Positions 1,416 to 61,307 of a DNA stretch of 64,000 nt are shown piece by piece. This DNA is from Membranipora membranacea (lineage: Eukaryota > Bryozoa > Gymnolaemata > Cheilostomatida > Membraniporidae): NCBI GenBank assembly GCA_914767715.1, contig OU612065.1:33664001-33728000 (forward strand), given 5' to 3'. The notes under the pieces are model-generated. The model searched no databases. It was not told where the DNA came from and worked only from the letters and a program-made list of their open reading frames with translations. Each line of letters starts with the position of its first letter. Within the stretch, counting starts at the first letter, position 1. A program made the position numbers and the translations under genes.

Positions 1416-1556
1416 CATGTGTACAATAGTTAACCTCACAGAGCTGAATGTATGTGGTAATGAGGACCTGCAGATATTACCAGAGTGGATCTGTAAGTTG
1501 GAGAACTTGACAAAGTTAGATGTGTCATACTGCGGTCTGGAGGAACTACCAGAGAG
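1416..1556 (+). CDS. Type-1 LRR exon 1 (47 codons)
   Basis: Acceptor TATTACAG, donor AG/GTAAAT, phase 2 on both sides. Encodes two LRRs beginning MCTIVNLTELNVCGN and ending YCGLEELPE. Compared with its neighbours it has CGNED at the first beta-strand exit and WICKLEN in the middle. It is followed by the 'gcgctgatc' intron type. Confidence 0.8.
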
Positions 1557-1793: not shown

Positions 1794-1934
1794 CATGTGT
1801 ACAATGGTTAACCTCACGGAGCTGAATGTGAGACATAACAGGAGCCTGAAGAGATTACCAGACTGGATCTGTAAGATGAAGAGCTTGACAAAGTTAGATG
1901 TGCCATACTGCGGTCTGGAGGAACTACCAGAGAG
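1794..1934 (+). CDS. Type-1 LRR exon 2
   Basis: 141 nt, phase 2/2. Two LRRs; the variable stretch is VRHNRSL and the second repeat carries DVPYCGLEELPE. It is followed by the same 'gcgctgatc' intron type as exon 1. Confidence 0.8.
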
Positions 1935-2171: not shown

Positions 2172-2312
2172 CATGTGTACATTGGTTAACCTCACGGAGC
2201 TGAATGTGAGAGGTAACACGAGCCTGAAGAGATTACCAGACTGGATCTGTAAGATGAAGAGCTTGACAAAGTTAGCTGTGTCACACTGTAGTCTACAGGA
2301 ACTGCCAGAGAG
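2172..2312 (+). CDS. Type-1 LRR exon 3
   Basis: 141 nt, phase 2/2. MCTLVNLTELNVRGNTSL and LAVSHCSLQELPE; the Ala replaces Asp at the second strand. The following intron is of the second type ('cagacgtgttg'). Confidence 0.8.
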
Positions 2313-2546
2313 GTAAATCAGACGTGTTGATCCATGCCCATTTCTCTCTGTTTTTGCTGTTATTTTCGCCTTGTCAGTTAGATGTGTCAATTTATTTAAT
2401 ATAATATCAAATTGAGGTTGATTTGTAAAATCCGAATGCAAGCTCTATAAAATTGATACTCAAGGCATGACAATTTCAGATGATGTGAGGTGAATTTCTG
2501 GGAACAAAATGAAACTATGAAGATTTACTGATCTTATATATTACAG

Positions 2547-2687
2547 CATGTGTACAATGGTTAACCTCACAGAGCTGAATGTATGTGGTAATGAGGACCT
2601 GAAGAGATTACCAGACTGGATCTGTGAGATGAAGAGCTTGACAAAGTTAGATGTGTCACACTGTAGTCTACAGGAACTGCCAGAGAG
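2547..2687 (+). CDS. Type-1 LRR exon 4
   Basis: 141 nt, phase 2/2. Shares VCGNEDL with exon 1 in its first half but HCSLQELPE with exon 3 in its second half, which looks like a recombinant of two exon types. Confidence 0.8.
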
Positions 2688-2921
2688 GTAAATCAGACGT
2701 GTTGATCCATGCCCATTTCTCTCTGTTTTTGCTGTTATTTTCGCCTTGTCAGTTAGATGTGTCAATTTATTTAATATAATATCAAATTGAGGTTGATTTG
2801 TAAAATCCGAATGCAAGCTCTATAGAATTGATCCTCAAGGCATGACAATTTCAGATGATGTGAGGTGAATTTCTGGGAACAAAATGAACCTATGAAGATT
2901 TACTGACCTTATATATTACAG

Positions 2922-3062
2922 CATGTGTACAATGTTTAATCTCACGGAGCTAGATGTGAGAGGTAACAGGAGCCTGAAGAGATTACCAGACGGGATCTGT
3001 AAGATGAAGAGCTTGACAAAGTTAGATGTGTCATACTGTAGTCTACAGGAACTGCCAGAGAG
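2922..3062 (+). CDS. Type-1 LRR exon 5
   Basis: 141 nt, phase 2/2. MCTMFNLTELDVRGNRSL, PDGICKM, YCSLQELPE. Its sequence is identical to exon 7, and the flanking introns are copied too. Confidence 0.8.
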
Positions 3063-3296
3063 GTAAATCAGACGTGTTGATCCATGCCCATTTCTCTCTG
3101 TTTTTGCTGTTATTTTCGCCTTGTCAGTTAGATGTGTCAATTTATTTAATATAATATCAAATTGAGGTTGATTTGTAAAATCCGAATGCAAGCTCTATAA
3201 AATTGATCCTCAAGGCATGACAATTTCAGATGATGTGAGGTGAATTTCTGGGAACAAAATGAAACTATGAAGATTTACTGATCTTATATATTACAG

Positions 3297-3437
3297 CGTG
3301 TGTACAATGGTTAACCTCACGGAGCTGAATGTGAGTGGTCAATGGAGCCTGAAGAGATTACCAGACTGGATCTGTAAGTTGGAGAATTTGACAAAGTTAG
3401 ATGTGTCAGACTGTAGGCTACAGGAACTGCCAGAGAG
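3297..3437 (+). CDS. Type-1 LRR exon 6
   Basis: 141 nt, phase 2/2. The only copy beginning Val-Cys-Thr instead of Met-Cys-Thr. Variable stretch VSGQWSL; Gln replaces the conserved Asn of the LRR ladder. The second repeat has SDCRLQELPE. Confidence 0.8.
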
Positions 3438-3671
3438 GTAAATCAGACGTGTTGATCCATGCCAATTTCTCTCTGTTTTTGCTGTTATTTTCGCCTTGTC
3501 AGTTAGATGTGTCAATTTATTTAATATAATATCAAATTGAGGTTGATTTGTAAAATCCGAATGCAAGCTCTATAGAATTGATCCTCAAGGCATGACAATT
3601 TCAGATGATGTGAGGTGAATTTCTGGGAACAAAATGAACCTATGAAGATTTACTGACCTTATATATTACAG

Positions 3672-3812
3672 CATGTGTACAATGTTTAATCTCACGGAGC
3701 TAGATGTGAGAGGTAACAGGAGCCTGAAGAGATTACCAGACGGGATCTGTAAGATGAAGAGCTTGACAAAGTTAGATGTGTCATACTGTAGTCTACAGGA
3801 ACTGCCAGAGAG
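3672..3812 (+). CDS. Type-1 LRR exon 7 (identical to exon 5)
   Basis: 141 nt, phase 2/2, base-for-base the same as exon 5. It arose by a recent 750-bp tandem duplication that also copied the introns on both sides. Confidence 0.8.
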
Positions 3813-4046
3813 GTAAATCAGACGTGTTGATCCATGCCCATTTCTCTCTGTTTTTGCTGTTATTTTCGCCTTGTCAGTTAGATGTGTCAATTTATTTAAT
3901 ATAATATCAAATTGAGGTTGATTTGTAAAATCCGAATGCAAGCTCTATAAAATTGATCCTCAAGGCATGACAATTTCAGATGATGTGAGGTGAATTTCTG
4001 GGAACAAAATGAAACTATGAAGATTTACTGATCTTATATATTACAG

Positions 4047-4187
4047 CATGTGTACAATGGTTAACCTCACTGAGCTGAATGTGAGAGGTAACTGGAGCCT
4101 GAAGAGATTACCAGACTGGATCTGTGAGATGAAGAGCTTGACAAATAAAGATGTGTCAGAGTGCGAACTAGAGGAACTACCAGAGAG
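4047..4187 (+). CDS. Type-1 LRR exon 8
   Basis: 141 nt, phase 2/2. VRGNWSL, then SLTNKDVSECELEELPE, where the framework Leu of the second LRR strand is Lys, which may weaken that repeat. It is followed by the first intron type again, as after exons 1 and 2. Confidence 0.78.
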
Positions 4188-4426
4188 GTAAATAGCGCTG
4201 ATCAATTAGCATGAATATTTGTTTGCGATGATTTATGCGCACTAAAATGCGAAGCATTGGACAGCTAATGACCTTTGAGACAGTTCTCAAAGTTTTGAAC
4301 AGGATAAAATGCAATAAATAAAGGTAACGTAAATAGGTGTGAAGTCATGACAATTTCAGATGATGTGAGGTGAATTTCTGGTAACAAAATGAACCTATGA
4401 AGATTTACTGATCTTATATATTACAG

Positions 4427-4567
4427 CATGTGTACAATGGTTAACCTCACGGAGCTGAATGTGAGAAGTAACTTGAGCCTGAAGAGATTACCAGACGGGA
4501 TCTGTGAGATGAAGAGCTTGACAAAGTTAGATGTGTCACACTGTAGTCTACAGGAACTGCCAGAGAG
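4427..4567 (+). CDS. Type-1 LRR exon 9
   Basis: 141 nt, phase 2/2. VRSNLSL, PDGICEM, HCSLQELPE. Last member of the regular array; the intron similarity ends near 4720, after which the sequence is unrelated. Confidence 0.8.
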
Positions 4568-4720
4568 GTAAATCAGACGTGTTGATCCATGCCCATTTCT
4601 CTCTGTTTTTGCTGTTATTTTCGCCTTGTCAGTTAGATGTGTCAATTTATTTAATATAATATCAAATTGAGGTTGATTTGTAAAATCCGAATGCAAGCTC
4701 TATAAAATTGATCCTCAGCA

Positions 4721-9457: not shown

Positions 9458-9598
9458 TCTAGGAACATTGACCAGCCTGGAAGAGCTGATGTTAGATGGT
9501 AATGAATCACTGACAGAGTTACCAGATGAGATCGGGGGATTGAAGAGTCTACGGACATTAAATGTATCAAAGTGTGGCCTCACCAGTCTGCCAAGCAG
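9458..9598 (+). CDS. Type-2 LRR exon 1
   Basis: Acceptor CTCTGTTATAG, donor CAG/GTAAAT, 141 nt, phase 2/2. Encodes two LRRs, SLGTLTSLEELMLDGNESL then LTELPDEIGG and LNVSKCGLTSLPS. It has the same length and phase as type-1 exons but an independent sequence. Confidence 0.8.
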
Positions 9599-11267: not shown

Positions 11268-11408
11268 TCTAGGAACACTGACCAGCCTGGAAAAGCTGAG
11301 GTTAGATGATAATAAAACACTGACAGAGTTACCAGATGAGATTGGGGGATTGAAGAGTCTACAGACATTAAATGTATCAGAGTGTGGCCTCACCAGTCTG
11401 CCAAGCAG
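11268..11408 (+). CDS. Type-2 LRR exon 2
   Basis: 141 nt, phase 2/2. LEKLRLDDNKTL and LQTLNVSECGLTSLPS. The downstream intron starts with a (TA)n-rich stretch shared by all type-2 exons. Confidence 0.8.
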
Positions 11409-14190: not shown

Positions 14191-14331
14191 TCTAGGATCA
14201 CTCACCAGCCTAGAGGAGCTGAGGTTAGGTGATAATGAATCACTGACCGAGTTACCTAATGAGATCGGGGGATTGAAGTGTCTGCGGATGTTAAATGTAT
14301 CAAGGTGTGGCCTCACCAGTCTGCCAAGCAG
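14191..14331 (+). CDS. Type-2 LRR exon 3
   Basis: 141 nt, phase 2/2. SLGSLTSLEELRLGDNESL, PNEIGGLKC, LNVSRCGLTSLPS. The paralogue at 32572 shares the Cys in GLKC. Confidence 0.8.
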
Positions 14332-22467: not shown

Positions 22468-22912
22468 TGTCGGGAAATCCTATCTTGTCAGGATAGCCAG
22501 CATGGGCTTGGCATAATTATTCCCGATCTCCAACTTGTTCTGATGAACGCGTAAGGCTTAACGGCAACCTGCCAGTCGAAAAGTCGGTTTAAAACAAGGC
22601 TACCAGCCAGGCACAAAAAATGTGTTGTTTATCAACTATACTATGATTTTATTGTGTACTAACTATCTAACTAAAACTAACAGAGTTACAAAGATTTAAT
22701 GTATAAATCAGTAAAGATAATCAGTGCGTTTAGTCTCGTCCGCTAGCAAACATGAAGTGTCAAGTTGTAAGAGGGAAGAGTGTAAGCTTGCTAAAAATAG
22801 TTACTGTCGTAGCATTAATAAAGGATTATTATAACAGACAAAACATGTGTATGAATAGAATGTGTCTTCAGTGCTTAATATATATAACAGTCAAAGACTG
22901 AAATTCCCCACA
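22468..22912 (-). repeat. 3' LTR
   Basis: 445 bases, TGTCGGGAAATC ... ATTCCCCACA on the + strand (TG...CA ends). A purine-rich tract (GTGGGAGAG, minus strand) abuts it at about 22913-22925 and is the likely plus-strand primer. Confidence 0.88.
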
Positions 22913-23433: not shown

Positions 23434-24668
23434 TCACCCAATGCCTGTATCCAGTGCGGTGATTATGTTATTTGTTGTTTTGTCATCTCCTATTGAGACA
23501 GATTGGCCTGTCTCCACAGGCTTTCCTGTTATTTCTATGAGGTGTTTTATTGGTTTAGTGTCCAGTAAAGCTGGAATAGAATGATTAACCGACTTTGTTG
23601 GACAGATAAGTGAATCACCTTGACAGAAAACATCGGAGTATTTTGTAAATAAATTTACTATTGCTCCTTTGTGGTCAGCTGATTTCATCCCTTGAGTAGT
23701 TGTGCTACAAAGCTCTTTCATGTGGTTTGACACTATGCTGTCATAATGGTCACCCAGCTTTGAAGCTATACCCTTGCTTTGTTGTTCAATATTTTCATTT
23801 CGACTCAAAACATCTCCAATGTTTACTAAATTAAATGCCTCTCCCATTGTATTTAGTGGCTTCATGATGTTGCCTGTTTTGTTGTTTACAAGCTGATCAT
23901 CTTTTGATAGTGATATTAAATCAGCGGAAAAAGTTCCGGCTCTGATTTCATCCTCTACTACAATTTTATTCAGCCCATCTGGCTCCCACAGCTTCAATGC
24001 CACCAAAACATTTTCTGGCATTTTATGATTCATTTTAGTTCCTGTTATACCACACATGCCTCTGGTATTATTACATAACTTTGTATGAATAGCCATCTCA
24101 GGTCTTACTGGGGTTATTGTATCACGCATAACTTGGATATTGCTTACAAGCAAATCCCCTAATCTGCCAACACATAACAGATTTTTATTATTGATATACA
24201 GTGACGCTTTCTTGAAGCTTAGTGTACACCCGCTCGCTTTGAAAAACGACATTCCGAGTATAGCATCATGTGTAATTCTACTCACAATGAATTCCTCAAC
24301 AAATTTCTCTCCTCGCACTGAACATTGCAGCTTGATTTTCCCTATGAGGGGTAGTTTTGACCCATCGGCCATTACCCCAGATTTTTCCAGAGGCTCAATT
24401 TCAGATCTGAGAGATTTTGGGAGTCTATCATACACATGCCTTGATAATACAGATTTAGAACACCCAGAGTCAAGTAAATACTGTATACTCTTTCCACCAG
24501 CCTTGCCTGGCACATAATAACAGGAATCTGACTCGTAATGACACAATTCATTACAGCTGACAACCTTTTTGTCATTTTTCCCACTGTTATTTTCACAGAG
24601 TCTTTCCTCAAGTATTTTTGATTCTGCTATTCTATCTCTTTCTACTAGGCTGGTGATGCGATCCTCTG
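23434..24668 (-). CDS. Retropepsin and truncated pol
   Basis: An aspartic protease frame open from about 24668, before the first Met at 24546. The active site reads YLLDSGCSKSVLS (Asp-Ser-Gly rather than the commoner Asp-Thr-Gly) and the later strand HDAILGMSFF is the usual I-L-G motif. About 190 residues on, a gypsy pre-RT linker (FTKYSDVFCQGDS, then PIKH) appears, and the frame ends soon after without any RT domain. The deletion makes the element dependent on another copy for replication. Confidence 0.8.
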
Positions 24669-24910
24669 TCTACAGATTGAGCCAACCTCATCAGTTTGAG
24701 ACACACTAGACTGGTCGGAAATTTTCCCAAGTTTACTGCTTGGATCAGCTTTCGAAGTCTGATCACATTCACTTTCCGCAGTGTTCAATGGGGTTTGATT
24801 TCCATGCTCAGCACTAGGATTTTTGTCCACTTTTTGATGGTTGCCCAACCTAGACATGTTTACACCAGCTTTTTCTTGTAAAAGGTTAGGTTCATCAGTA
24901 GCTGGTGAGT

Positions 24911-25834
24911 TTACTGAGAACCTGTGGAGTTTACCTGATTTTCATTAGGACATTCCCTTGCCATATGATTTTCTGAGCCACATGAGTAGCATGCTCGTTT
25001 TCTCTGCCTAGTGTTTTGGACACTGGCCAACTTTTCTACAGCTTTTGTATTCCTATCCAATATCTCCATTATTTTGATAAGAATTTCCGTTTGTTTAGCT
25101 ATTTCACTACTGGTGCTCTCAGTGACTTTAGCTTTGGGTTTATTTTGATAATCACCACGTGTTGAGTGCATACCTACAGTATTACAGTAAAAATCAACTT
25201 CATTTTCAAAGTCAGAATTTTCTGAATAGCTTACAACATTTATTTGCGGCCTTTGTCTGAGGTTGGAGCCAGCCTGAACATAATCATCTGAAGCCCGACA
25301 TATTTCCGCTACAGTGTTGAGTTCTATTGTCATTAGATGTCTCAATAACTGACGATTTTCTATGCACCTGCGCACATTTTCTACGGCGATATCTTCTTGA
25401 TGAGCAGCGCCCATGTTTGGATACGCAATTCTTACTAATTTTAGAATTTCTACTCCGAGTGAGTGAAACTTTTGACCTGGTTCTTTTCTTACAGTGGACA
25501 ATTTGTCCCGAGCTTGCCTCTGTGTTAGACCAAACCTGGCTCTCAGGTTAACAAATACCGCTTCTACATTATCTCCTCTTGCACATTCTTGTGCTTGTTT
25601 TTCGAGACACAGTCTGATGTTTAAATGGGCTGCCTTGGGATTCCAGTTGTTGGCTTGGGCCACATCAGTGAATTTTTGAATGAAGAATTCGATATCTTCA
25701 CTTCCATCATACTTTGGTGGTTTAAAGTGGTCTCTCCCACCATTCATTTGCCTGAAGGCATTTTGGAAGGCGTTTGCTAGATGGTCTGCTTCATCAGCCG
25801 GCTGTTGCCTGGCAGCATTACCTCTGTTTGCCAT
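24911..25834 (-). CDS. Retrotransposon gag polyprotein
   Basis: 307 residues forming the capsid/nucleocapsid of the element. The middle has a gypsy-type capsid pattern (PPKYDGSEDIEFFIQKFTD near residue 40). The C-terminus has one CCHC zinc knuckle, CYSCGSENHMAREC, with Cys282, Cys285, His290 and Cys295. The start Met is supported by its position after the leader. A second open frame (24645-24857) and then the protease follow in other frames, so pol expression would need frameshifting or the region has decayed. Confidence 0.85.
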   Translation of the reverse strand: MANRGNAARQQPADEADHLANAFQNAFRQMNGGRDHFKPPKYDGSEDIEFFIQKFTDVAQANNWNPKAAHLNIRLCLEKQAQECARGDNVEAVFVNLRARFGLTQRQARDKLSTVRKEPGQKFHSLGVEILKLVRIAYPNMGAAHQEDIAVENVRRCIENRQLLRHLMTIELNTVAEICRASDDYVQAGSNLRQRPQINVVSYSENSDFENEVDFYCNTVGMHSTRGDYQNKPKAKVTESTSSEIAKQTEILIKIMEILDRNTKAVEKLASVQNTRQRKRACYSCGSENHMARECPNENQVNSTGSQ

Positions 25835-25874
25835 ATTTTTGTGCTAAATTATACTCTGAGTTTCATACAGCTAG

Positions 25875-28990: not shown

Positions 28991-29131
28991 TTTAAGAACA
29001 CTGACCAGCCTGGAAGAGCTGACGTTAGATGATAATATAACACTGACAGAGTTACCAGATGAGATCGGGGGATTGAAGAGTCTACGGACATTAAATGTAT
29101 CATACTGTGGCCTCACCAGTCTGCCAAGCAG
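28991..29131 (+). CDS. Type-2 LRR exon 4
   Basis: 141 nt, phase 2/2. SLRTLTSLEELTLDDNITL and LNVSYCGLTSLPS. Paralogue of the 11268 exon, with changes at strand-exposed positions. Confidence 0.8.
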
Positions 29132-32571: not shown

Positions 32572-32712
32572 TCTGGGATCACTCACCAGCCTAGAGGTGC
32601 TGAGGTTAGGTGGTAATGAATCACTGACCGAGTTACCAGATGAGATCGAGGGATTGAAGTGTCTGCGGAAGTTATATGTACGAAGGTGTGGCCTCACCAG
32701 TCTGCCAAGCAG
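32572..32712 (+). CDS. Type-2 LRR exon 5
   Basis: 141 nt, phase 2/2. SLGSLTSLEVLRLGGNESL, EIEGLKC, LYVRRCGLTSLPS. The most divergent type-2 exon: Tyr and Arg replace Asn and Ser in the second strand. Confidence 0.8.
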
Positions 32713-35217: not shown

Positions 35218-35358
35218 TCTAGGAACACTGACCAGCCTGGAAGAGCTGACGTTAGATGTTAATAAAACACTGACAGAGTTACCAGATGAGATCGGGGGAT
35301 TGAAGAGTCTACAGACATTAAATGTATCAGAGTGTGGCCTCACCAGTCTGCCAAGCAG
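35218..35358 (+). CDS. Type-2 LRR exon 6
   Basis: 141 nt, phase 2/2. LEELTLDVNKTL and LQTLNVSECGLTSLPS. Last LRR-only exon before the ROC exon; the intron to it is 7-7.8 kb. Confidence 0.8.
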
Positions 35359-42240: not shown

Positions 42241-42317
42241 CCTTCTAATGATATTTAGGAATTGTTAACAATTTCAGGTATTTCAAGGCGTCAGCTATTT
42301 TATTTTTCTTTTTACAG

Positions 42318-42636
42318 CATGTCAAACTTAGAAAATTTAAGGCAACTGAATATCAATAAGAATATAGCTCTGATCTCAATTCCCGCTGGAGTATGTCGAC
42401 TCAATACACTCAAGTCAATCGAGTGTGAAGACTGTGCATCTCTGACAAGTCCTCCTTATGCTGTCTGTAGTCAGGGGCTGCCAGCAATGAGAAAATACTT
42501 TGCCGATCTGGAAGAAAATGTTGAGCAAAACATCCATCGACTTAGAGAAAAGTGTAAAAATTGCACATTAAATTTAAACAAGAACAGGAGTTTCCAATAC
42601 AGAAGCCAGCTAACCAATAAATTGCCTTCCAATTAG
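42318..42636 (+). pseudogene. Truncated copy of the ROC-entry exon
   Basis: Acceptor TTTTTACAG and the first 71 codons match the functional exon at 43182 with few changes (MSNLENLRQL, through ENVEQN). After codon 71 it switches to LINE-linker sequence and stops at 42636, before the P-loop. It came from a local duplication whose breakpoint fell inside the exon. If used as a last exon it would give an LRR protein without ROC, COR or caspase; otherwise it is dead. Confidence 0.7.
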
Positions 42637-43181
42637 TCCTTTTTATGATATTTAGGAATTGTTAACAATTTCAGGTATTTCAATGCGTCAGACCTTTTAA
42701 ACTCTGCGAAGAACTGTCACAGTGTTACTATTACTGTTATATTGTCACTATTATTCCTCGAATGAACAGAACACCCCCCCCCCCTCCCCTAAACATTTTA
42801 GTATTTCACAAGATCATTATGGGGAAAGTGTGACAAATTTACATAAATCTGGTTAAGAAAAGTATTTCTATTTACATTTCAGAAAAGCTGTAAAATAGCA
42901 GACTCCTTTATTGATTTATCACAAGAAAATTATTATTATTTTCCTAATAAGGAAGTTCTGATGAGACAACAGAAATTTGTTCTACCATAGACATCGGGTA
43001 GCAAGACAGAAATTGCACCATATTTAAAACCTAGGCACGGAATCACTGTCCAAATCGATAAAGATTCTTTTATTCCTACCAAATTCCATAGAAAATGCAC
43101 TGTATGCTATTAAAATTGCAATGGATTCCTACACTTCTCATAGGTAAAAATATTTGAGCTATTCTATTTTTCTTTTTACAG

Positions 43182-45085
43182 CATGTCAAACTTAGAAAAT
43201 TTAAGGCTACTGAATATCAATAAGAATATAGCTCTACTCTCAATTCCCGCTGGAGTATGTCGACTCGATACACTCAAGTCAATAGAGTGTGAAGACTGTG
43301 CATCTCTGACAAGTCCTCCTTATGCTGTCTGTAGTCAGGGGCTAGCAGCAATGAGAAAATACTTTGCCGATCTGGAAGAAAATGTTGAGCAAAACATAAA
43401 GTTTGTTCCAATAACTGTTATTGGTCAATCTATGGCTGGTAAAACCAGCCTTGTTCGGTCAATGCAAGAAAATAAACGGGCTTTGACCACTCGATGTAAC
43501 AATAGCAAGCTAGATGAGGCCACCAAAGTGATCAAGGTGTGTGAGGTAGACGTTGATGAAAAATTCAAACTTGTATTTCATGACTTTGGTGGGCAAGCAG
43601 TATATCAGTTTGCCTATCAATTGTCACATAGATCACAGTATGTTCCCATGCTTGTCATAGACATTGCTGAATTTGACCGACTTGTAGCTGAACACGGAGA
43701 AGAGAATGCCTGTGAGACAGTCTGTTTAACATGGCTCTCCCACCTTTATTTGTCCTGTCCAAAAGCAGGCCAGCCTTTCGTGGTGCTCACCCACTGTGAT
43801 CTTATCGATAATGAAACCTGCAAAGCGAGGGTGAGTCAGTTGATAGAAGTGACTGAACGTCTACGCCTTAGGTTAATAGAGGAGGAGAAGGCAATGAGAC
43901 CAATAAACAGTCCAATCTTCATAATGGAGAGTTTCTGTGATACATCTCAACCTCTTCTCTCAAAACACACACCCCTTCTCATATATAAAGGTTCTGGAAC
44001 ACAGGTAATCCTCGATCTAAAAACTTTCCTTGTGTCTGTTGGATTGCCTCTACTCACAGAGATTCCAGGTAGCTGGTATGTTCTGATGAATTTGTGTGCA
44101 AACAGCACACAGCCATATCTTACGCTGGGTGAGCTAGACAAGCTCTTCTCTAATGACAAAGATCGCTTCATTCTTCAGTACCTTCATGAAATCGGGCGAG
44201 TGATGTGGTACAGAAATCGAGTCAAACTAAAAAACATCGTGTTTCATCGCATTGAGCTGCTCACACACCTAGTTGAGTTGCTCTATGATCACTGCAGAGA
44301 GGAAGCGTGGAATAAGCGTAGTTTTCTGGCATTCCAGCATGGTAACATGAGAATCAATCAACGGCAATACAATCATATGGTCCAATCATACCTAAATACT
44401 GGAGTGATAAGGGACATTTTACTGCTCAACCTCATCAAAAAAGAGTCCGAATTCAAATCCCAACCTGAGCTTGCAATCGAGGTATTGAAGGTCTTTCATT
44501 TGGTTTGTGGTCCTGTCAAGAAGGGCAGTGAAAGTCATTATATCGTCCCATACTTCAGTCAGAGAGAAATCACAATCGAGGAATCTGGAAAGTACATTCT
44601 TTTGAAAGTTGACATCTGTTTCAACGGACTGGCTATTCCTAGCTACGTATATCATCTTCTCGCTGCAAATTATGTGGATCTCCATATGACGCCATCCAAT
44701 TGTATTGAGGCTGGCTCCAATGGTGTTTGTGTGAGGGAAAACAATGGCACAATCAAGTACCTGCTTCATAACCATACTGAGAGAACCTTTTCCCTCCTGA
44801 TACTGACCCCAACAAAACATGTCGATACATCCTGGGACAGCCTGCTGTACACCTTGCAACATTTGAGATCTCAACTGGAACAAGAATGGAAGGGAGCTCA
44901 CTATGAGATAGTATTCTACTGTTCGCACTGCCTGCTCACTAAGAAGGAGAACCCAACCACTCAAGTCAATCCTGCATGGCTCAACACTCGCCATCAACCT
45001 TATACTGGCGATGAAACTTGTGACTGTATTCAGCAAACTTCAGCCAAAAGCCGGACTACTATTCCGTATCCACTGTTCTATCCAT
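43182..45085 (+). CDS. LRR end, ROC GTPase and COR domains
   Basis: 1904-nt exon, 634 full codons, entering in phase with the LRR exons and leaving at CCA-T/GTGAGT. Residues 1-60 finish the LRRs. ROC at about 74-285: P-loop GQSMAGKTS (81-89), switch-II DFGGQ (134-138), G4-like THCD (203-206). COR at about 290-630, with the typical ILQYLHEIGRVMWY (330-343) and LKNIVFHRIELLTHLVELL. ROC binds and hydrolyses GTP and COR mediates dimerisation in ROCO proteins. There is no kinase downstream; a caspase takes its place. The next in-frame stop (45163) is avoided by splicing. The LRR part starts with Met, but the acceptor just before it argues for an internal exon. Confidence 0.85.
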
Positions 45086-45238
45086 GTGAGTACAGTTTCA
45101 CCAACTTATGTATGATTGATATGGCAATGAAAATTCTGGTCTGCTCTTTCTGCCTTCCTCTATAGATACCTTAATTCAAATTGTTTTTCTGATGCTTGCT
45201 ATATTATGACATACTACATGCTACTATATGCTTGATAG

Positions 45239-45423
45239 GTAGCACCATCACAGAGAGAGGGGTTCAGACTTTAGATGAGTACATGTCAGAATTGGAAGTG
45301 GCTTCTCATGAATCACAAATAGAGGATATTGTGAAGGAAGTAAATTCTGAGAAAGTTCTTATTTACGCTTCAGATTTATATCCAGTCACGGCTGACCCAA
45401 TGAGTAGTACACTGAAACATAAG
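45239..45423 (+). CDS. Linker exon between COR and caspase
   Basis: 185 nt, phase 1 to 0. Encodes STITERGVQTLDEYMSELE and then a charged, probably helical segment ending SSTLKHK. No recognised domain; CARD and death domain patterns were not evident. Supported by the matching phase with both neighbours. Confidence 0.7.
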
Positions 45424-45579
45424 GTAGGAAGATGTTGTTGATTTTCACCTTTTATATGTAATATTTTCAAGATGAACCCCACTGTTTTCACTCATAACCT
45501 GCATACAATAAGATGGTAGTAAATTTACTGGATTTAGTGTGCCTACACACACATTAGTCAGAGTCTTATTTTCTTGCAG

Positions 45580-45741
45580 AAGGTGTACAAAATGTCTGAG
45601 ACTCGCGGAAGAGCGCTTATTATATCGAACACCTGCAATAACACAAGGAAAGGTTCAGAGCATGACTATCGGAATATTAAAGGAATGCTTGAGAAGTTTG
45701 GATTTATAACTGTAGGAGGTCACAAAAATTACACTGCAGAG
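45580..45741 (+). CDS. Caspase p20 exon 1
   Basis: 162 nt, phase 0/0. KVYKMSETRGRALIISN is the usual first strand of the caspase fold; NTRKGSEHDYRNI supplies the Arg of the S1 pocket (R-x-G-S/T pattern); FGFITVGGHKNYTAE leads into the next exon, completing a TAEM motif. Confidence 0.85.
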
Positions 45742-45771
45742 GTAATGGCAATGTTTTTGTTCCGCCATTGT

Positions 45772-45881
45772 TTAAGCGCTCAAACGGTGACGGGATGCTG
45801 GTAGAGGCATTTCATTGTCAAGAGAAAGTGGTTGATAATGAAATGCCTCTACCGGCATCCCGCCACCGTTTGAGCGCTTAA
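45772..45881. repeat. Long hairpin in a caspase intron
   Basis: Arms of about 50 bases starting TTAAGCGCTCAAACGGTG and ending in its complement; few mismatches. Its right-hand TTAA is also the left flank of the next element. Confidence 0.8.
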
Positions 45882-46248
45882 AGGGCAACCAGGGTTTCAA
45901 ATAACTTCTCATTTGTTCTCATTGATTAATAACAGATTGCACCTTCTGCATAGAGAAAAAGACAAAATCTAATTCGGATGATTATTCAGCCAAAATTCTT
46001 GTGAAACATTTCATCCATCTGGTACTGACACTAGAATACCACAGAGCAGTTTCCTGTTCCTGTTATTATTTAGCCTGTGCTCTATCATCATTACAGCAAT
46101 GTCGTGGAACCTCCCCTAAACTGAAGTGTTACCCAGCTTAGAGTCAGTAACCACTTTGAGTTTTGCATCGCGTAATGCACAAAGCTGATGCTGCTTAGCA
46201 CATTATTTACTACCTGTTAATGCATTGCTGCGCATCCTTGGTTGCCCT
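45882..46248. mobile_element. TTAA-flanked small transposon
   Basis: Termini AGGGCAACCAGGG / CCTTGGTTGCCCT with TTAA at 45878-45881 and 46249-46252; 367 bases, no ORF. Same target preference as the elements at 445 and 6504. Confidence 0.7.
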
Positions 46249-46764
46249 TTAAACTAGCTCCGCCACAATGAAATAAACGCATTGTCACTATAGGAAAATT
46301 ATCAATATTTGATCTAAAATTATAATAGGTAGAGGTGACTGTAACTCAGTTTGTAAGGTAGTATAGATATTTCATATGAGAGAGCCAGTGATCAATTCCC
46401 AGCAATTGCAGAAGTATAAGAAGAAGCGACCAACCAAAGCAGCAGCATCTTGTTATCAACTTGATGCTATTTCTTCTTCAATTTTTTTTTGAGCTGAAAA
46501 TTAGTATCAATTGTTCAGGATAAGCTGCTAAATCTACTGTAATTCTCAAACTCAAAATCAAAGAAAAACCTGGACTTTTGACAGTAAAGCAATAATTGCA
46601 TCATTGTGTCTACAACTTCCGTTACGTCGCCCCACAATTAAGTGCCTCATTTCAGCTGTATATGGTGTCCTGTCTAGGAATGTTATTAAGTCTATGGTGA
46701 GATCCTATTTTTTGGCTTCAGGCTATATAGGTATACTCGAATCACTTATTTGTTGTTTGCATAG

Positions 46765-47005
46765 ATGATCGTTACGGCTATCCATTCAGAGACACAGCTA
46801 GTAGACTGGGAGACAGGAGAATCAGTACACAAACATCTCAACTCATTTGTGTTGGTCATCACAAGTCATGGTCATGAAGGGTCTGTGTCTGGTTCCAATG
46901 GTAAACATCTCGTAATCGCAGAGCTTATGGATCTGCTTTCATCTGGGAATTTCCCCGCCATGAGAGGGAAGCCAAAGCTTGTCATCATACAGGCTTGTGC
47001 TGGTA
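46765..47005 (+). CDS. Caspase p20 exon 2 with both catalytic residues
   Basis: 241 nt, phase 0 to 1. FVLVITSHGHEG carries the catalytic His; KLVIIQACAG carries the catalytic Cys. The pentapeptide is QACAG, where most caspases have QACRG or QACQG. The phases match exons on both sides, and TAE plus M completes the TAEM motif at the junction. Confidence 0.88.
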
Positions 47006-47242
47006 GTAAGTTTATAAACTTGATCGATTATGGACAGTCAAATATTGTTCTAAGGGAGTAACTTACTAATAGTTCAACGATTCTTTTTTAATTTCCATGT
47101 CCTTGTCATTTACGTCTGCATTCTCAGGCAGCGATTTACCGATGGTATGACATACACCCAAATTTTCTACTACGTATTTGCTCTTATACTCATAAGACAA
47201 ATTAGTTCTCGGTGAAAGTCAAGATTGTCTCTCTACTTGTAG

Positions 47243-47416
47243 GTAGGAAAGAAACACTTCCAGGAGACTTGCCCCCTTCTCAAGCACCACCCAATCAGAA
47301 TCAGCTAGAAGTAGATCAGCCTCAACACAGCAATGGAGCCACAAATGAATCCCCTTCTACAGATCCTCATGATAACCCTATATCAGACTTCATCATTATG
47401 CAGTCCAGCTTTGATT
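47243..47416 (+). CDS. Caspase inter-subunit linker exon
   Basis: 174 nt, phase 1 to 1. A Pro/Gln/Asn-rich linker containing QLEVDQP, a plausible caspase cleavage tetrapeptide (LEVD), then SDFIIMQSSFD, the start of p10. Confidence 0.82.
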
Positions 47417-47782
47417 GTAAGTTGTGAGAGACAATATTCCCTACTTTCTCATTGTGATGGTAGATGTGTTTGTATTGAAATGAACATAATTGTACTTTAT
47501 ATCACTGACAACCAGTTTGAAGGTTGTCTTGGTTTGTTGATGATTGAGTTATTTTAAATTATGAACAGTAGGACACCCAACTCAATCTGACGGGCACAGC
47601 TGAGCTGAGGCATATCCATCTTCTTTGTTTGAGTGATGTCATCGATCAGTTATTTTAACAGGATATCCCAGCCTTTGGCATGCACAACTCATTTGAACAC
47701 TTACAGAGTATGATAACTAGCCACTTGGTCATACTAGGCAATAGTAGGAAATGCAAAAACAATTTTTTGTGTTCTTTTGCAG

Positions 47783-47892
47783 CATTCAAATCACATCGAA
47801 GTCCTAAAGTTGGCTCGCTGTTCATCCGCTGCCTGGTATCTGCATTCTATAGATATGCTCACAGAGATCATCTCGAAGAACTGGCAGCAATT
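47783..47892 (+). CDS. Caspase p10 exon 1
   Basis: 110 nt, phase 1 to 0. SFKSHRSPKVGSLFIRCL matches the S-W-R...GSWFIQ segment of p10; the Arg after Ser-His is the substrate-pocket Arg, so Asp specificity appears kept. Confidence 0.85.
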
Positions 47893-48219
47893 GTAAGTGA
47901 TAGATCTTACTGCAGTTTTAGTCAATGTATGATGCTTGTAAACAGTTTTTACACAATCAATCGAGTTTTTTGCAGTACAGTTATTAATTGTCTCAACAAA
48001 TTGTTGGTTAATGCTTGAGAGTTTAGTAAGACTTGATGTAAGCATGTGCATTTTTACAGCATAATCTCAAGCTGAATCAATCAAGCACAAATACAACACA
48101 CATTTTTTTAGGGTGGGGGGGGGGGGGGTAAATGGACTGAATAATACATAGCATGTTAGTCACAGCTAAGTAAATGATTCCACCCGCACCTTTGTGACGG
48201 CCATTGGCTTATTTTACAG

Positions 48220-48439
48220 GTCAGAGAGACTGTAGTAAAGGCTGGAGCACAGAGAACAGAATATCTGCAAAGAATCGGAAAGCAGCGGTATCCCTCTATG
48301 CCTCAGAGTAGATGTACATTTCCAGGTAATAAGTTCTATCTGCAGCCTGGAATCAATATGAGAACAGAGGACCACCCAGAATCACTCAGAAATCCTGTGT
48401 TACGCAAACCTACAGCTACAAGGATTCACACAGAACGTG
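48220..48439 (+). CDS. Caspase p10 exon 2
   Basis: 220 nt, phase 0 to 1. VRETVVKAGAQRTEYLQRIG, then QSRCTFPGNKFYLQPG, the last strand of p10, then an extension of about 30 residues. A GTAAT donor inside (after CATTTCCAG) is probably not used, because the caspase frame continues past it. Confidence 0.8.
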
Positions 48440-49011
48440 GTATGTATGATGTTATGTATGATATAGAAGAAATGAAAATCATAGAAACTTTTTACTCGTT
48501 TCAATGCCGTTGCGCCACTTACGATGCTGCTGCTGCTGCTGCTGTTGCTGCTTACAGTGTCCTGTCTAGGTTGAGGAAGTTTTTTATTTTTACCTGATTC
48601 TGACACTGCCTCAGTTTTTTCTCCTACACACCTGCTGATATGTCTGTAACTTGTGAATTAACCAAAATATAAGGTACATATTATGTATTTTTTGAGTAAT
48701 GAAAAAGCATTGTGCAATAGTACATATCATGCAATATTTATTAGTGCTAGAGATGCGTTAGACAGTTCAAGTTCAATTCCAGCCCGGCAAATGATAATGT
48801 TGAAAATAAGATGCAAATAACATGTTACGCTTTCTACTTGATGCTGCCAAAAAATATTTTTTAGCCCACCCACTGATGTGTTGTCATGAAGGAACAACTT
48901 GAAAATTCACCAAAAAAACATGAGTGAAATATGATTGGCCTATGGTATGGAAAAGACATTGTGATGTCTTACCATAATATACAATGTTAATTGGATTTTT
49001 CTCTTCTGCAG

Positions 49012-49109
49012 ACCTGATACATACATATAGAACCGGAGAGACAGAGCAGATGAAGACTTATTATCAGTGGTCAGTAAAGAGAAACTCAGTAAAGAGGAAC
49101 TCACCATGA
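49012..49109 (+). CDS. Last exon, C-terminal tail and stop
   Basis: Acceptor TCTTCTGCAG; DLIHTYRTGETEQMK then a basic tail ending in TGA at 49107-49109. No known motif. The short exon fits in phase after 48439. Confidence 0.65.
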
Positions 49110-49212: not shown

Positions 49213-49218
49213 AATAAA
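49213..49218 (+). terminator. Polyadenylation signal of the LRR-ROC-COR-caspase gene
   Basis: AATAAA 104 bases after the stop; further AATAAA copies follow near 49347. The first is the likeliest. Confidence 0.5.
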
Positions 49219-52813: not shown

Positions 52814-54147
52814 ATGGACACTGATCTGTACGATGAGTTTGGTAATTACGTCGGACCGGACTTAGATGACAGTGATGATGAGTTAGCGAATCAGGATAGT
52901 GATGGGTCAGCTGACCACGACGCTGTAGATGATGATCCCAATGATGCTGACGTATGTATTTTATAATCCTTCACCATTCAAGTTTCTTCTTCGCAAAGTT
53001 TCTTTTGGAGTAAAGCACTAAGTCTTGGAGTTTACTATGTGTTTAGGAACTCAATTTGTACTTGGAGATACATCCTTATTTCACTCAATGTGCATGTAGA
53101 AGACCAATTACCCGATATTGATAATAATTTTACTTTTTTGAACCAGAATGATGATATGGATGGAGATGATGGTGACGCTGATATGCAGGTTGTACTACAC
53201 GAGGATAAGAAGTATTACCCTACAGCTAGTGAGACGTTTGGTCCTGATGTGGAGGTAAGTTGATAAGAGGATTTCCAATCCGCCTTCCTCTTGTGTTTAT
53301 GACTATATATCAATAAAATTAGGTCAAGATTTTATTCTCATCTTAGGATGTTTTTTTCACTGTAGTTATGCTGCCCAAAACATTTTTGGTTGGCAGTGTA
53401 CCAATAAGTAGAAGCTCAGATGAGCCCATCAGATTGAGAAGGCATGCAAGCTAAATTAAGCCTGGATGCTAAGTATTCAAGTATAGTTTTGAAATTGATC
53501 AACTTTGGGAGCTAAGTTCTTGACTTTAGCATCTCAGTGTCTTAACGTGTGATTTTTTAGACAATTGTACAAGAAGACACCCAGCCGCTGACTGAGCCGA
53601 TTATAGCACCTGTAAAACAGAGAAAGTTTGCATATACAGAGCGAGAACTGCCTTTCACTACAAATGACTATGAGTGAGTGAGGCTCATTATTCAGTCTTT
53701 TCCTGAGAAAGACCAATCCTGCTGACAAATTCTGATTAACATACGGTGCCACCTCCGTTTTGGCCTTTTTTCCCAGTCTATATCGTGAATATCTTGCAAC
53801 AACTCGTTTCTTGTTAGCTGATTTCGCCTTTGATGACACATTAGTCATGAATTTTTGAGGCTGCAATTGGATGAATGTGGCATAATTTTTGTTTTCCATT
53901 CCCGATATCTCATATTGCGCTGCTCTTATCATATTTCAGGTTTTTAGCTGATCTGATGGACAATGCTGACCTGATCAGAAATGTGTCACTGTGTGGCCAT
54001 CTCCACAACGGAAAGGTAAGGAAAGCATTATCTCCCTGTTTCGTGATGTAAAGCAACACAATAGTGGTTCGAATGTGCCCGGCAATATACCAGGCTGGCA
54101 AGTCAGACTCACAGTGTATGTATCAATCATTGTTATCTGTATTACAG

Positions 54148-54429
54148 ACCACGTTTGTGGATGCTCTGAAGGAGCAGACCCATCCTCAGTTCCGTAGTAC
54201 AGACATGCTGACAGCTGACCTACGCTACACTGACACGCTCTTCACAGAGCAGGAGCGCGGAGTCAGCATCAAATCACAGCCTATCACTCTGGTACTACCT
54301 GATGTGAAGGGCAAGTCCTTCCTGTGTAACATATTTGATACACCCGGACACGTAAACTTCTCTGATGAGGTGACGGCAGCATTAAGAGTCAGTGATGGAG
54401 TTGTGATCTTTGTGGATGCTGCTGAAGGA
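54148..54429 (+). CDS. EFTUD2: EFTUD2-like exon 5, GTPase core
   Basis: 282 nt, phase 0/0, intact. Carries [13 protein letters not shown] (switch I region) and [12 protein letters not shown] (switch II), both close to the animal consensus. It is the best-preserved exon of this copy. Confidence 0.8.
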
Positions 54430-57400
54430 GTAAGTTGTTATGTTTGAATTGTCTACTATTGCTCCACACTTTTTATCTCAACATATTTGTAAGCATGTCA
54501 CAGCCGGTACAAGTTTGAGTTTTCAGCATTCTTTAACTTGTCTTGTCTGCAATGGGGGATAACACAACATACATTCTTTAACTTGATGTTCTTTTTTGAG
54601 TGAAAATCACCCACAAGCGCACCTGGATAAAGTTCTCCACGGGATGACTAAGCTGTTTTCTCAGCCAACTGGAAGATTCAGTTAAGAGCTGCTAATATGT
54701 AGCTATCTCTCTATAAACAATCAACCAATACTGCCCCCCGCTCCCTCCACCACTATGGTTTGATTACAGGTTATGATGAACACAGAGAGATTGAAACAGC
54801 ACACCTTACATGAGAGACTGGCCATCACTATCTGTATTAATAAGATAGACCGTCTGATACTGGAGCTCAAACTTCCCCCTACTGATGCATACAACAAACT
54901 CAGACACATCATCGATGAGGTACGTATCGAGATTAGACATTAAGCTCACTTCGCTTAGATAAATTAGTATATATCCGTTGGTAATGGATGTCCATGATAC
55001 TTAGAGATGGCGCAAAACCTGTATATAAAGCATTACACATTTAGGGCAGTAAGGGCTATGCCTTTTTTTGCTGCAATCAACGACAAAAAGGAAAATATTA
55101 TCCAGCTAGAGTTATGTTAATATTGATGGCAGCACCTTATTCTCTTTATGGAGAGAAAATGAAGAAGATTTAGATGATCAGACTCAATGTTCAGTTGATC
55201 TAGTGGCACTATGTACACTTTGATAACAGAGTGTAGAAAAACACTTCACCCAATTCAGATCCCTACACTTAGACATATCCCTGTATCTAGATCAAACTAC
55301 AGCAACAGTTTTTTCAGTTAATCACTCAAGGAAATTATTATTGTTTCAGATAAACGAGATAATAGCTAAGTAAGGAGATGATGAGTCTCAGGGTATGGTC
55401 TCTCCTCTGCTCGGTAATGTCTGCTTCGCCAGCTCTTACTATAGGTTCTGCTTTACTCTGAGATCATTCGCTAACGTCTACTCTAAAACCTACCAGGGTA
55501 TCAACGATGTGGAGTTTGCTAGGAGATATGTACTTTAATAGCAAAACGTAGGTTTAATAATTCTTTTTTAATGTATTTTCTCCTAGAATTTTAACTTTCA
55601 TATTAAAAAGTAGGGTTGAAATATAGAAGTTCCAAATATTTTGACTGTTTACATTATGATGTAGGAGTCTGCTCATACCTGCCGCTCAGTGAAGAGTTAA
55701 CCCTCAAAATTTGGCTGTTTGTTTAAGTTTTACTTTAGGATATTGAAAAGATGTTTTGGCTTTTCCATACTGTAATTCATGTGTAAACTTTAAAGAGGAA
55801 CTTAACTTGAAATCCATATTTGCCCAAATTTGCCCAAATGTTCACAGTCATATGGAGTGTCATGTTCCAACTTTGGTCATGTGTGAAATTTCCCGCCTAG
55901 TGACATCACTCACCTCATACCTAGCAATTCATCAGAGCTGTGACATCACTCACCTGATCCTCATAGTATTGATTGTATCATGTGAATGATTCATAGATAT
56001 TCATATAATATTTTCTCAGTAAATATAGTATTTTTTATTTTGATTTAAAAACTCTGCCATAATAGTGAGTATTTTAAATATAATTAAACTAATAATTACT
56101 GAAATATCTCAATAATAATACTATTTTGAATTTTGGTGGGCGGAGCTTGGAGTATGAATACTAAGCAGATTTAGTATGTGAACTGTTTAGATGAGCAATA
56201 GAATGCATACTGACTCATGCTGGGGATATAATGCCCATTAAATTAGTGTGTGCGGTGAGCCATAAATAAATTGCCATACTGCTGCGAAATTATACTGCCT
56301 GCTTTGAATGAGACGCATATGCACCAGCAATATTTACTATCTTTGTACTGGAGTTGTCTGCTTTTTCCAATGATGTCACTAATTATTGCTAATTTTAATT
56401 CTCCCAAAAAGAAGCTTTACATTGCACGGATTGAATTTTAATTTTCATAACATTCCTCCCCCATGTCCTAAGTATAGTGTGCAGTAAAATGAAGGTCCAA
56501 GGTTGATGCGTTCAATCTATGTTAAGTTCCTCTTTAAAATTTCAGCCGCAAATTCTCAAAGAATGCACCACAGCCCGGAGCAGCGAGAAGCTTTGTGGAG
56601 TTTATACTTGAGCCTCTGTACAAGGTCTTCGCCCAGGTATACATGAAGAACTCCTTGATCAAGTAGCGCTCTCCAGGATAAATTGTCTCCACTTGATGTT
56701 AAAAACTTAACATCAGACTAAATTTATTTTCGCTGATGATAAGTTTCACTACTTAGTTACAGTTTTGACTATAGTAGCAACACAGCGAGAACTTCTACGG
56801 AATGATTTTTTTGCCAATTTGAGTAGCTTTTCAAGAGTGTATCAACTTAGTCAGCCATTTATTTTATCCAACTTCAAGCAGCAATCATAAAGGCACATGT
56901 ATTGACTTGGCTGCGTTTGCATTAACTATGTTATAAAAAAACAATAGTCTTTTGTGAGGCAATGGATACATGGACTCCTTTCTCCCTGTATTCTGGTGCA
57001 GAACCAACTCACCAGCTCGTCAGTTTTCTCTCATTTAGTAATTGGTCCATGCACTTGCCTAATGCCATTTAGTAAGAGACATCCTTCTGTGTAGCCACTG
57101 CTTTAGCCTATATTTCCTGTGTAGCCGCTGCTTTAGCCTACATTCCCTGTGTACACAGATAGTAGGAGATGTAGACGAATGCTTACCCATGGTGTGTGAG
57201 GAGTTAGGTATACATCTAACTAAAGATGAGAAGAGAATGAATATCAGACCACTACTAAGATTAGTTCTCTCCAGATTCCTCGGTGAAATGAGCGGTATGT
57301 AGGATACTAGGATATAGATAGTAACACCTCCTTGTACCATCATTCTTATTTTGCCTGTGATACGAAAAGTTGGAGTTGTTTACTTCCATATATTGTGTGA

Positions 57401-58720: not shown

Positions 58721-61307
58721 ATGGCTCGTAAGAACAAAGACCCACAAACAAAAGAGGTTGCGACCTTTGGCTCAGCAACTGTAGCGTAAATCAATTTTGG
58801 TCTTCTTATCGGCGCCATCGGATTGGAGATTTATTTTACTGACAAAGAGAATCGTCAACAGAGTGCTTTGGATCAGGTGAGTTGTATTATGAATCCTAAG
58901 TGCAATATTATGAAAACATTTATGCAAAAAAAACTTTAGTATTTTATACTGTTCAACTTGCCAGGCATATATTGTTTTTTGAGGAATTCCACTCAGCAAA
59001 CAGGCTCCAAAGATATTGAATATATGTTATGGTAGGTCACAGGCTGAATTGGGGTAATATACATTTAGAAGTTATTACATTCCAATGATCATGCATCTAC
59101 CAAAATTGGAGGAAACAAAAGCCTAAAATTGATTTTAAGTTTTTCCTTATTACAGCATTACGTGAGAACTTATGGTCACCTAACACATCTAGATAAATTA
59201 AGAGATGAGTTTAACACCTCCGAACTTTCAGCAGCAGGATATGAGCCTCTCTGGTCTGATGATGACAACTTTATCAATGTATACAAGAGACAAGGTGAGA
59301 ATTACCAAACTCTCACTTCATGACTTTTGACATTGTTACTTTCCAAAAACTGTTGCAAATATTATTGAGTAAATACATTCATGTGCAAACAATCATCGAC
59401 AAAATTTCTAAAGTTGAATTGTGCAGAAGTGGGCAATTTAAGCTTTGTAAGAATCAATGCGAAATGGCGGTCTTTGGCTACTTTTTGTATTCTCATTATA
59501 ATGATTATGTTGTCGGAAGGATTATCAAGATATGTGCACTTGAATTTTGAAGACTCTCTTAGAGCAATGGGTGAAAGCTACTTCTTCTAGTTCTTTTGAT
59601 AATCACACTAAGGGACATAATTATGTTTGTTCCTGATTCTTTTAAAGCTCGCCGCTAGAATTCTAGGCAAGGCAGTCAACAACACGCTGGAGGAAACAGG
59701 AGGAGACCCACCGCTAGCGTCGGCGGGAGGACCAGCTGTCGCTGCCTTACAGGTCCACGTGGACCACCTGGTGCTCCTGGTGAAAGAGGTGAGGATACTG
59801 TGAAGGTAACCTGAGCAGGCTGTCGGGGTGGATGTAGCCCCCTCCCCACTCACCCCCGCCAGTCTGCCCAGGATACCGTGAAGGTCTCTGTAATTACTAT
59901 TTTTTTCTTTCTCAGGGGAAAACAAGTTGCCTCTAAATAACTACTTGCTATTTGTATACTCTCAAACCAATCTCTATAAATATGGAAACAAAAGCGGCTG
60001 GATGCTGTCTTCATCAAAGTTGTGTAGTGGTTTATGGTTTGTGGAATGAGAAATATTAGGTAACATGTATACAAATACCTTTTGTGAGTTTAAATGTTCC
60101 CCCAATGTTTTGACAGCTTCATACAATGTAATGCTTACATACAGCACTTTCTGCTTGTATGTATACATATCATAATCATAAGTTGAAAATGCATACAGGT
60201 TAAGTCTCTTGCCATAAAGTCCAGAAAATAGGAACATCAACATAATATGATATCACTGGACAACCTAAGTACAGGTAATGGAACATTACCTGATCAAATA
60301 TTTTTTACCAATTTAAGGGGACACGATTATCGAGGGGCAGGTTGTTGGAATACCAGGAGTAAACGGTGTAAGAGGACAAACTGGAGAAAAAGGATTCAGA
60401 GGAGTGACTGGTAAGTTTGGGCCGGGGGCTGTCGGAGGGCGAGGGGGAAAGAGTCTGGGGGGCTCAGACTAGCTATAACCATCCTGTAGCTTGCAAAATT
60501 TCGACCAAACAGTCTGTCAAAAATTGAACCCAGTAAACACTGTATCACCATAGATATAGTTGTCCATGAAGGCCAACATATATATGAAAACAAAGATTGA
60601 AATGGCAAGGAGATCTACAAAGCTCTAACTGAGCCTTGAGATCATCATCAGAAAAAAAATCCTAATTCAAGTCAGTTGATTCGCTCCGCACACTAGTAGT
60701 TTGAAAATCTGCGGCTTCAATGTTTACACCAAGGACCACCAAGAGGTAACTTCCATAATTTTTCACCCCCTTTATTATTTATTGAATGTCACAACAATTT
60801 CTTACAGGAGCTGCCGGAGCTAGAGGTGCTCAAGGTACCCGGGGAGTGCCGGGGAGAAATGGTATAAATGGTACTCCAGAGAGCAACGGACAACCAGGCA
60901 CCCCAGGTTTGAATGGTGCACCAGGAACGATCGGAGCAGATGGTAGTACAGGCTCTCCCGGTGTGCAAGGTGTTGCTGGACCTAATGGAACTCCAGAAGC
61001 GCCAGGAGCTCAAGGCACAATTGGAGTGTTTGGAACCAATGGAAGCCCAGGCTTGCCTGGTACGCCAGGTGTCAATGGAATTCAAGGACCGCCAGGAGAA
61101 CCAGGGACTGCAGGAGTAGCCGGAGTGCAAGGGCCCGCAGGTGTGTCCGGACCATTCGGAATACCTGGTCCAGATGGGGTACAAGGACTACCTGGAGCAA
61201 CAGGTGTGGATGGAGAGGATGGAGAGGATGGGACACCAGGTCCAAGAGGGCCAACTGGTGAGCCGGGCCGAGGTCCAAAGGAGGCACTATTTGCCGAATT
61301 CGGTTGA
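58721..61307 (+). pseudogene. Membrane-type collagen-like gene with in-frame stops
   Basis: Exons: 58721-58876, 59156-59294, 59648-59788, 60318-60410, 60808-61307. Start MARKNKDPQTKEVATF, then a hydrophobic FGLLIGAIGLEIYF, which suggests a type-II membrane or uncleaved-signal N-terminus. A non-collagenous stretch follows (HYVRTYGHLTHLDKLRDEF), then CRCLTGPRGPPGAPGERG and about 180 residues of Gly-X-Y. All exon phases agree. Faults: TAA at 58787-58789 just before the hydrophobic segment, TAG at 59656-59658, and two Gly-to-Glu changes in the helix. Spongin-like short collagens of sponges are the nearest type I can think of. It may be a pseudogene or contain sequence errors. Confidence 0.6.
60808..61307 (+). 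CDS. Collagen Gly-X-Y exon
   Basis: About 53 Gly-X-Y triplets without a stop, from GAAGARGAQGTRG to PRGPTGEPG, then RGPKEALFAEFG and TGA. Two triplets begin with Glu instead of Gly (TPESNGQPG and TPEAPGAQG). The stop is 94 bases before an AATAAA. A GGTGAGCC donor at about 61257 could instead splice to an exon I did not find. Confidence 0.8.

Follow-up and report, generated by a model that had tools for sequence, protein, structure and literature searches.

A predicted LRR-ROC-COR-caspase gene and its paralog family in the genome of Membranipora membranacea

The window analysed here, a stretch of 64,000 nucleotides from Membranipora membranacea (C1:33664001-33728000, in an assembly of 339.3 Mb and 18 contigs; window positions are used below), carries a series of exons predicted to encode leucine-rich repeats (LRRs), a ROC GTPase, a COR domain and a caspase in one protein. 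Eight exons between 43182 and 49109, one for ROC-COR, one for a linker and six for the caspase, are separated by seven introns, all with GT-AG ends and matching phases, and read in one frame. The conceptual protein from ATG 43183 has 1030 amino acids and one terminal stop; with all 15 upstream LRR exons it reaches 1735 amino acids, again with a single terminal stop. The features of this part of the gene are as follows, with the basis of each call in brackets.

43182..45085, plus strand, ROC-COR exon with the last LRRs, the ROC GTPase (GQSMAGKTS, DFGGQ, THCD) and COR (splice sites and frame, Pfam, structure matches)
45239..45423, plus strand, linker exon from COR to caspase, phase 1 in and 0 out (splice sites and frame, coding score, paralog comparison)
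45580..45741, plus strand, caspase exon 1, TRKGS with the putative S1-pocket Arg (splice sites and frame, caspase-9 alignment)
46765..47005, plus strand, caspase exon 2, SHG His and QACAG Cys (splice sites and frame, Pfam, caspase-9 alignment, paralogs)
47243..47416, plus strand, caspase exon 3, p20-p10 linker with candidate cleavage site LEVD|Q (splice sites and frame, sequence motif)
47783..47892, plus strand, caspase exon 4, p10 with SHR and GSLFIRCL (splice sites and frame, caspase-9 alignment)
48220..48439, plus strand, caspase exon 5 (splice sites and frame)
49012..49109, plus strand, last coding exon, stop TGA (splice sites and frame)
49213..49218, plus strand, AATAAA signal 3' of the stop (sequence)
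42293..42533, plus strand, truncated duplicate of the 5' end of the ROC exon, 97% (self-comparison, frame)

An initial annotation of this DNA had joined the ROC exon in phase, through the linker, to exons with a caspase fold, and this holds: splice sites and phases agree at every intron, and the SHG, QACAG, SHR and GSLFIRCL motifs lie in exons 46765-47005 and 47783-47892. The span it gave, 42318-49109, had to be revised at its 5' end. Position 42318 lies in the truncated duplicate, a 97% copy of 43157-43397 whose frame meets a stop ahead of any ROC, the ROC exon itself starting at 43182, and the span omits most of the LRRs, which sit at 1416-35358. The 185-nt linker is open in the predicted frame only, among six frames, and its coding score was reached by none of 874 stop-free windows (drawn from 22,020 overlapping, presumed noncoding windows on both strands). 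A MITE-like (miniature inverted-repeat transposable element) inverted repeat, its 51-nt arms 94% complementary, sits at 45771-45882 in the intron that follows caspase exon 1. An Rfam scan of the window gave 0 matches.

The sensor part is encoded upstream by 15 LRR exons, all 141 nt long, in phase 2-2 and with AG/GT ends, each encoding two LRRs and splicing in frame to the ROC exon.

1416..1556, plus strand, LRR exon 1
1794..1934, plus strand, LRR exon 2
2172..2312, plus strand, LRR exon 3
2547..2687, plus strand, LRR exon 4
2922..3062, plus strand, LRR exon 5
3297..3437, plus strand, LRR exon 6
3672..3812, plus strand, LRR exon 7
4047..4187, plus strand, LRR exon 8
4427..4567, plus strand, LRR exon 9
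9458..9598, plus strand, LRR exon 10, second LRR type
11268..11408, plus strand, LRR exon 11
14191..14331, plus strand, LRR exon 12
28991..29131, plus strand, LRR exon 13
32572..32712, plus strand, LRR exon 14
35218..35358, plus strand, LRR exon 15

A profile search of the window recovered the same 15 exons plus two short fragments, and Pfam recognised LRR families in a sample of units (four of the 15 exons and the start of the ROC exon). Part of the series is held by a 375-bp repeat present in eight copies at 1709-4717, while gaps between LRR exons reach about 15 kb. The ratio of nonsynonymous to synonymous substitution rates (dN/dS) was 1.71 and 2.04 at the presumed concave LRR positions and 0.64 and 0.35 at the other positions. 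With few changes and non-independent pairs, this is suggestive of diversification on the concave face and constraint on the remainder. A reverse-transcriptase open reading frame (ORF; 20501-22516, minus strand) and gag/protease-like ORFs (23437-25843, minus strand) lie between LRR exons. An ORF of about 140 amino acids recurs between LRR exons at six minus-strand places from 8780 to 37500, perhaps as the end of a retroelement duplicated with the LRR exon units; Pfam gave no match for the one copy searched. A large inverted repeat seen by eye at about 440-1110 lies just 5' of the first LRR exon.

A Pfam search of the 1030-residue protein identified Peptidase_C14 (E 2.3e-30, 106.5 bits, cut-off 21.4) and Roc (E 1.6e-6, 28.8 bits, cut-off 27). 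Across 11 ROC-COR exons, Roc was matched in all 11 (29.7 bits in the window) and COR-A in eight at E<=0.01. The GTPase motifs lie at residues 81, 134 and 203, with the P-loop Lys at 87, numbered from ATG 43183. Among PDB entries, the ROC part came closest to Roco of Chlorobium tepidum (sequence E 9.7e-7, profile E 3.1e-12), and all 16 Foldseek matches at E<=0.001, obtained with a low-confidence AlphaFold2 query model, were LRRK1, LRRK2 or Roco. For the caspase part, the best PDB match was caspase-9 (3v3k, 1nw9; E 3.4e-14), in an alignment that lines up TRxGS, SHG, QAC and S-x-R and in which the putative S1-pocket Arg, Gln and Arg are kept (TRxGS, the Q of QAC, the R of SHR). In caspases, these three residues provide Asp specificity. 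The W of SWR is replaced by H, and the catalytic His and Cys are retained in 24 of the 24 ROC-COR-linked rows with a full segment. The ROC GTPase with its P-loop and G3 motif agrees with ROCO proteins, and the N-terminal LRRs from 15 phase-compatible exons agree with ROCO group 1, the COR domain after ROC being a putative assignment. The predicted protease has the Peptidase_C14 fold and the catalytic His and Cys of metazoan caspases (C14A). The 1030 residues scanned contained no NACHT or NB-ARC domain at E<=1, which sets the protein apart from NLRs, and Pfam found no CARD, DED or PYD in them. A bacterial origin of the caspase is disfavoured because the best 60 of the 174 PDB sequences matched were all named animal-type caspases.

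Conservation was examined in ten near paralogs (L009-L018) and five loci at 36 Mb (L019-L023). Between the window and the 36 Mb loci, dN/dS was 0.13-0.44 in all eight segments tested (all but the last exon), including 0.22-0.44 in the linker, and these ratios indicate purifying selection on the exons tested. In all ten near paralogs the linker retains AG and GT and is free of indels, and eight of the ten stay open as far as one terminal stop (L013 and L018 left out; L009 with its beginning cut off). ROC carries a frameshifting indel in L013, and L018 (C1:34427001-34435500) has lost the AG of the acceptor following the linker, another AG lying three bases on. Relative to the window, L018 is 99.9% identical in the ROC-COR exon; in the caspase part, identity is 92% for exon 1, about 82% for exons 2, 4 and 5 and 97% for the last exon. 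L018 is therefore a recombinant copy, and modules are exchanged between copies. In L019, about a third of the COR residues differ from the window and the linker consists of two exons, for which frame-keeping GT-AG joins exist and across whose junctions the peptide is conserved; both the linker methionine and the methionine before the caspase are gone, so that the bridge running from COR up to the caspase sequence KRMLG contains none. The pre-caspase methionine is replaced (VYSVSKTRGR) in L019, L020, L021 and L023, which keep the caspase, and retained in L022. Across many paralogs the exons keep their order, phases and splice sites and show selection, and these sequence comparisons strongly support the single-chain fusion put forward initially.

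The association extends genome-wide, where counts are lower bounds, scoring having covered 140 of the 515 candidates for caspase and 70 of the 263 for ROC-COR. Of the 70 scored ROC-COR exons, 52 had a listed caspase match on their own strand 0.7-3.0 kb downstream, and for none of the 70 did one occur within 10 kb upstream or on the opposite strand; uniform placement would give an expectation of 0.002 for each. The adjacency of ROC-COR and caspase exceeds chance. Six of the 18 scored ROC-COR exons with no listed caspase were fetched and all six had caspase exons, so a caspase stands behind 58 of the 70 (52 listed and six fetched; 12 were outside this check). Starting from the other side, 18 of 20 loci picked from C1 caspase matches showed ROC-COR and then caspase on one strand, 16 of them with a recognisable linker. 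LRR, ROC and COR fall within one uninterrupted ORF in L029 and L030, and L029-L032 have a divergent caspase type after ROC-COR (QACQG, QACQV, QACQP, QACQA). ROC-COR and caspase distances were correlated across 22 loci (r 0.87, reached in 0 of 2000 permutations; related copies included). Judged by its predicted genes, a large LRR-ROC-COR-caspase family is real in this genome.

These data point to one gene that probably encodes an LRR-ROC-COR-caspase receptor protease, most likely a ligand-gated initiator caspase that would be activated by proximity. What was read from the sequence is the exon anatomy, the domain homology, the co-duplication of ROC-COR and caspase and the purifying selection relative to older paralogs. 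The initial annotation had described a sensor, a GTP switch and an executioner; the anatomy fits this division, whereas function is what we infer. Initiator caspases are activated by proximity, and the oligomeric state of Roco proteins varies with the nucleotide. A ligand would bind to the LRR solenoid, whose interchangeable 141-nt exons vary in the residues they expose, and binding would shift the GTP/GDP and dimer state of the ROC-COR switch. This change would bring two caspase domains together for proximity activation, followed by self-cleavage at Asp sites; the p20-p10 linker offers the candidate LEVD|Q, and YASD|L between COR and caspase is perhaps another. The active or released caspase might then start cell death or inflammatory signalling with no CARD/DED adaptor.

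Several observations weigh against this interpretation. The gene and its protein are predictions from DNA sequence. The first coding exon was not found, no LRR exon scoring above threshold in the 37 kb upstream, and some LRR exons may be unused because they are scattered over introns holding retroelements. COR-A remained under its cut-off of 35.3 bits in the window (E 0.0012 with 19.3 bits in the protein search, 20.6 bits in the ROC-COR exon search), and the AlphaFold2 model had a predicted local distance difference test score (pLDDT) of 53.7, with query template-modelling (TM) scores of 0.14-0.18 across the 16 Foldseek matches. The catalytic motif reads QACAG, an unusual form. In near-identical copies, where changes are few, dN/dS was about 1.7 in the linker (L012, L013, L016, L017), 1.3-2.5 in ROC (L009, L010, L015) and 1.31 in caspase exon 5 (L009, L010, L011, L015). 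Of 145 caspase matches, 93 had no scored ROC-COR partner and stay unpaired because both counts are lower bounds. Finally, of the 20 C1 loci, L024 (C1:33237001-33246000) has family caspase exons and no ROC-COR in the preceding 3.8 kb, and L027 matched nothing.

A broader proposal, which we consider possible but hold tentatively, is that the family serves intracellular immunity as a set of one-chain inflammasomes, dozens to hundreds in number, each combining exchangeable, diversifying LRR cassettes with a GTP switch and an initiator caspase of its own. The cassettes would be recombined between copies and perhaps alternatively spliced, and recognition and execution could proceed with no adaptor because each copy has its own sensor, switch and caspase. 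It is unlikely that the caspase of a true fusion acts instead as a signalling or regulatory module (weak, of another specificity or a decoy) and that the protein functions not in killing but in self-recognition, the management of symbionts or development. The QACAG motif, where QACRG or QACQG is common in caspases, and the H of SHR would suit such a module. In one class of bacterial systems, moreover, about 70% of the caspase domains in effector position are inactive, according to the available text of PMC7159879. On the other hand, the catalytic residues and the putative S1-pocket triad are retained, and the caspase exons are under purifying selection relative to the 36 Mb loci.

A mostly decayed copy, whose retroelement-separated LRR exons are relics and which yields just a short product, is very improbable. 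Gaps of up to about 15 kb with reverse-transcriptase and gag/protease-like ORFs, the truncated ROC-exon duplicate and the frameshift in L013 would fit decay, but 15 of 15 LRR exons retain length, phase, splice sites and open frame, their non-concave positions are constrained, and the gene is intact from ROC-COR to caspase. Least credible of all, and rejected, is a pair of adjacent, co-duplicated genes, one for LRR-ROC-COR and one for a separate caspase starting at the in-frame ATG 45592 (KVYKMSETRGR) just 5' of the caspase domain: this start and the caspase exons of L024 would favour it, as would the stop that falls directly after COR if the linker exon is skipped, which makes a ROC-COR-only, protease-free product possible, but the start methionine is lost in four of the five 36 Mb loci (L022 has it), the L019 bridge from COR to KRMLG offers no substitute (an extra 5' exon remains conceivable), the linker is coding-like and conserved, and neither AATAAA nor ATTAAA occurs between COR and caspase (45086-45579).

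The receptor protease reading invites comparison with known systems. Animal NLR and apoptosome-caspase pathways likewise combine sensor repeats, a nucleotide switch and a caspase output. Here the switch is a ROC-type GTPase instead of NACHT/NB-ARC, the caspase stands in cis, and the scanned residues lack CARD, DED and PYD. Caspase-9 is the nearest solved caspase by sequence, but no CARD prodomain was found here and ROC-COR occupies its place. The initial annotation had considered the architecture undescribed, a claim that we reject in its general form. The available text of PMC8195603 describes bacterial proteins with LRRs, an AP-GTPase (equivalent to ROC), COR and a C-terminal effector that may be a caspase, in one chain and in several copies per genome, as here; because these are already in print, the present gene is an animal variant and not a new kind. 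The bacterial systems use at least 24 different effector domains, whereas here a caspase lies behind 58 of the 70 scored ROC-COR exons (12 being outside the check), and the present gene has animal-style introns and an animal-type caspase. Two pattern scans of prokaryote genomes found no relatives of the ROC-COR part, which does not prove a separate origin, and a search of viral contigs with it found none either.

Among eukaryotes, the accessible portion of the Roco review PMC6337361 recognises three groups and lists animal MFHAS1, LRRK1/2 and DAPK1, and that of PMC4104024 reports at least 17 Trichoplax ROCO genes with non-caspase partners. The ROC-COR core, often with LRRs ahead of it, is shared with these proteins, whose partners are kinase, death, CARD, TPR, AAA, TIR and other domains, in contrast to the caspase found here. 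The word caspase is absent from the available text of PMC6337361 and occurs once in that of PMC4104024, inside the name of CARD. ROC-COR domains also occur in Aplysia TIR proteins (PMC9334734, in the text available). The many ROCO genes of brown algae, as presented in the available part of PMC11378527, resemble the present family in their tandem, duplicated and diversified phase-2 LRR exons, but those are 72 nt long with one LRR each, compared with 141 nt and two LRRs here; caspase is not mentioned in that part, and one group has another peptidase. No description of an animal LRR-ROC-COR-caspase protein was found in the literature, within the available text of these sources, although PMC11378527 mentions up to forty animal domain combinations, which could include one. 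As far as these searches go, the architecture is new for animals.

If expressed, the gene would combine a sensor, a switch and a protease in a single animal protein and would mean that in animals, as in bacteria, a ROC-COR switch is coupled directly to a caspase. The family would then be a candidate for a large set of animal immune receptors. It would also offer a simple system in which to ask whether the nucleotide state of ROC-COR gates an attached enzyme. The same question is open for LRRK2.

Beside the gene lie an EF-Tu-type GTPase exon, which we take to be EFTUD2-like, at 54052-54444 and a short collagen at 60786-61304. By-eye comparison showed very similar ORFs beside the preceding paralog, at C1:33633491 and 33639774, so the tandem unit seems to include the EF-Tu-type and collagen ORFs.

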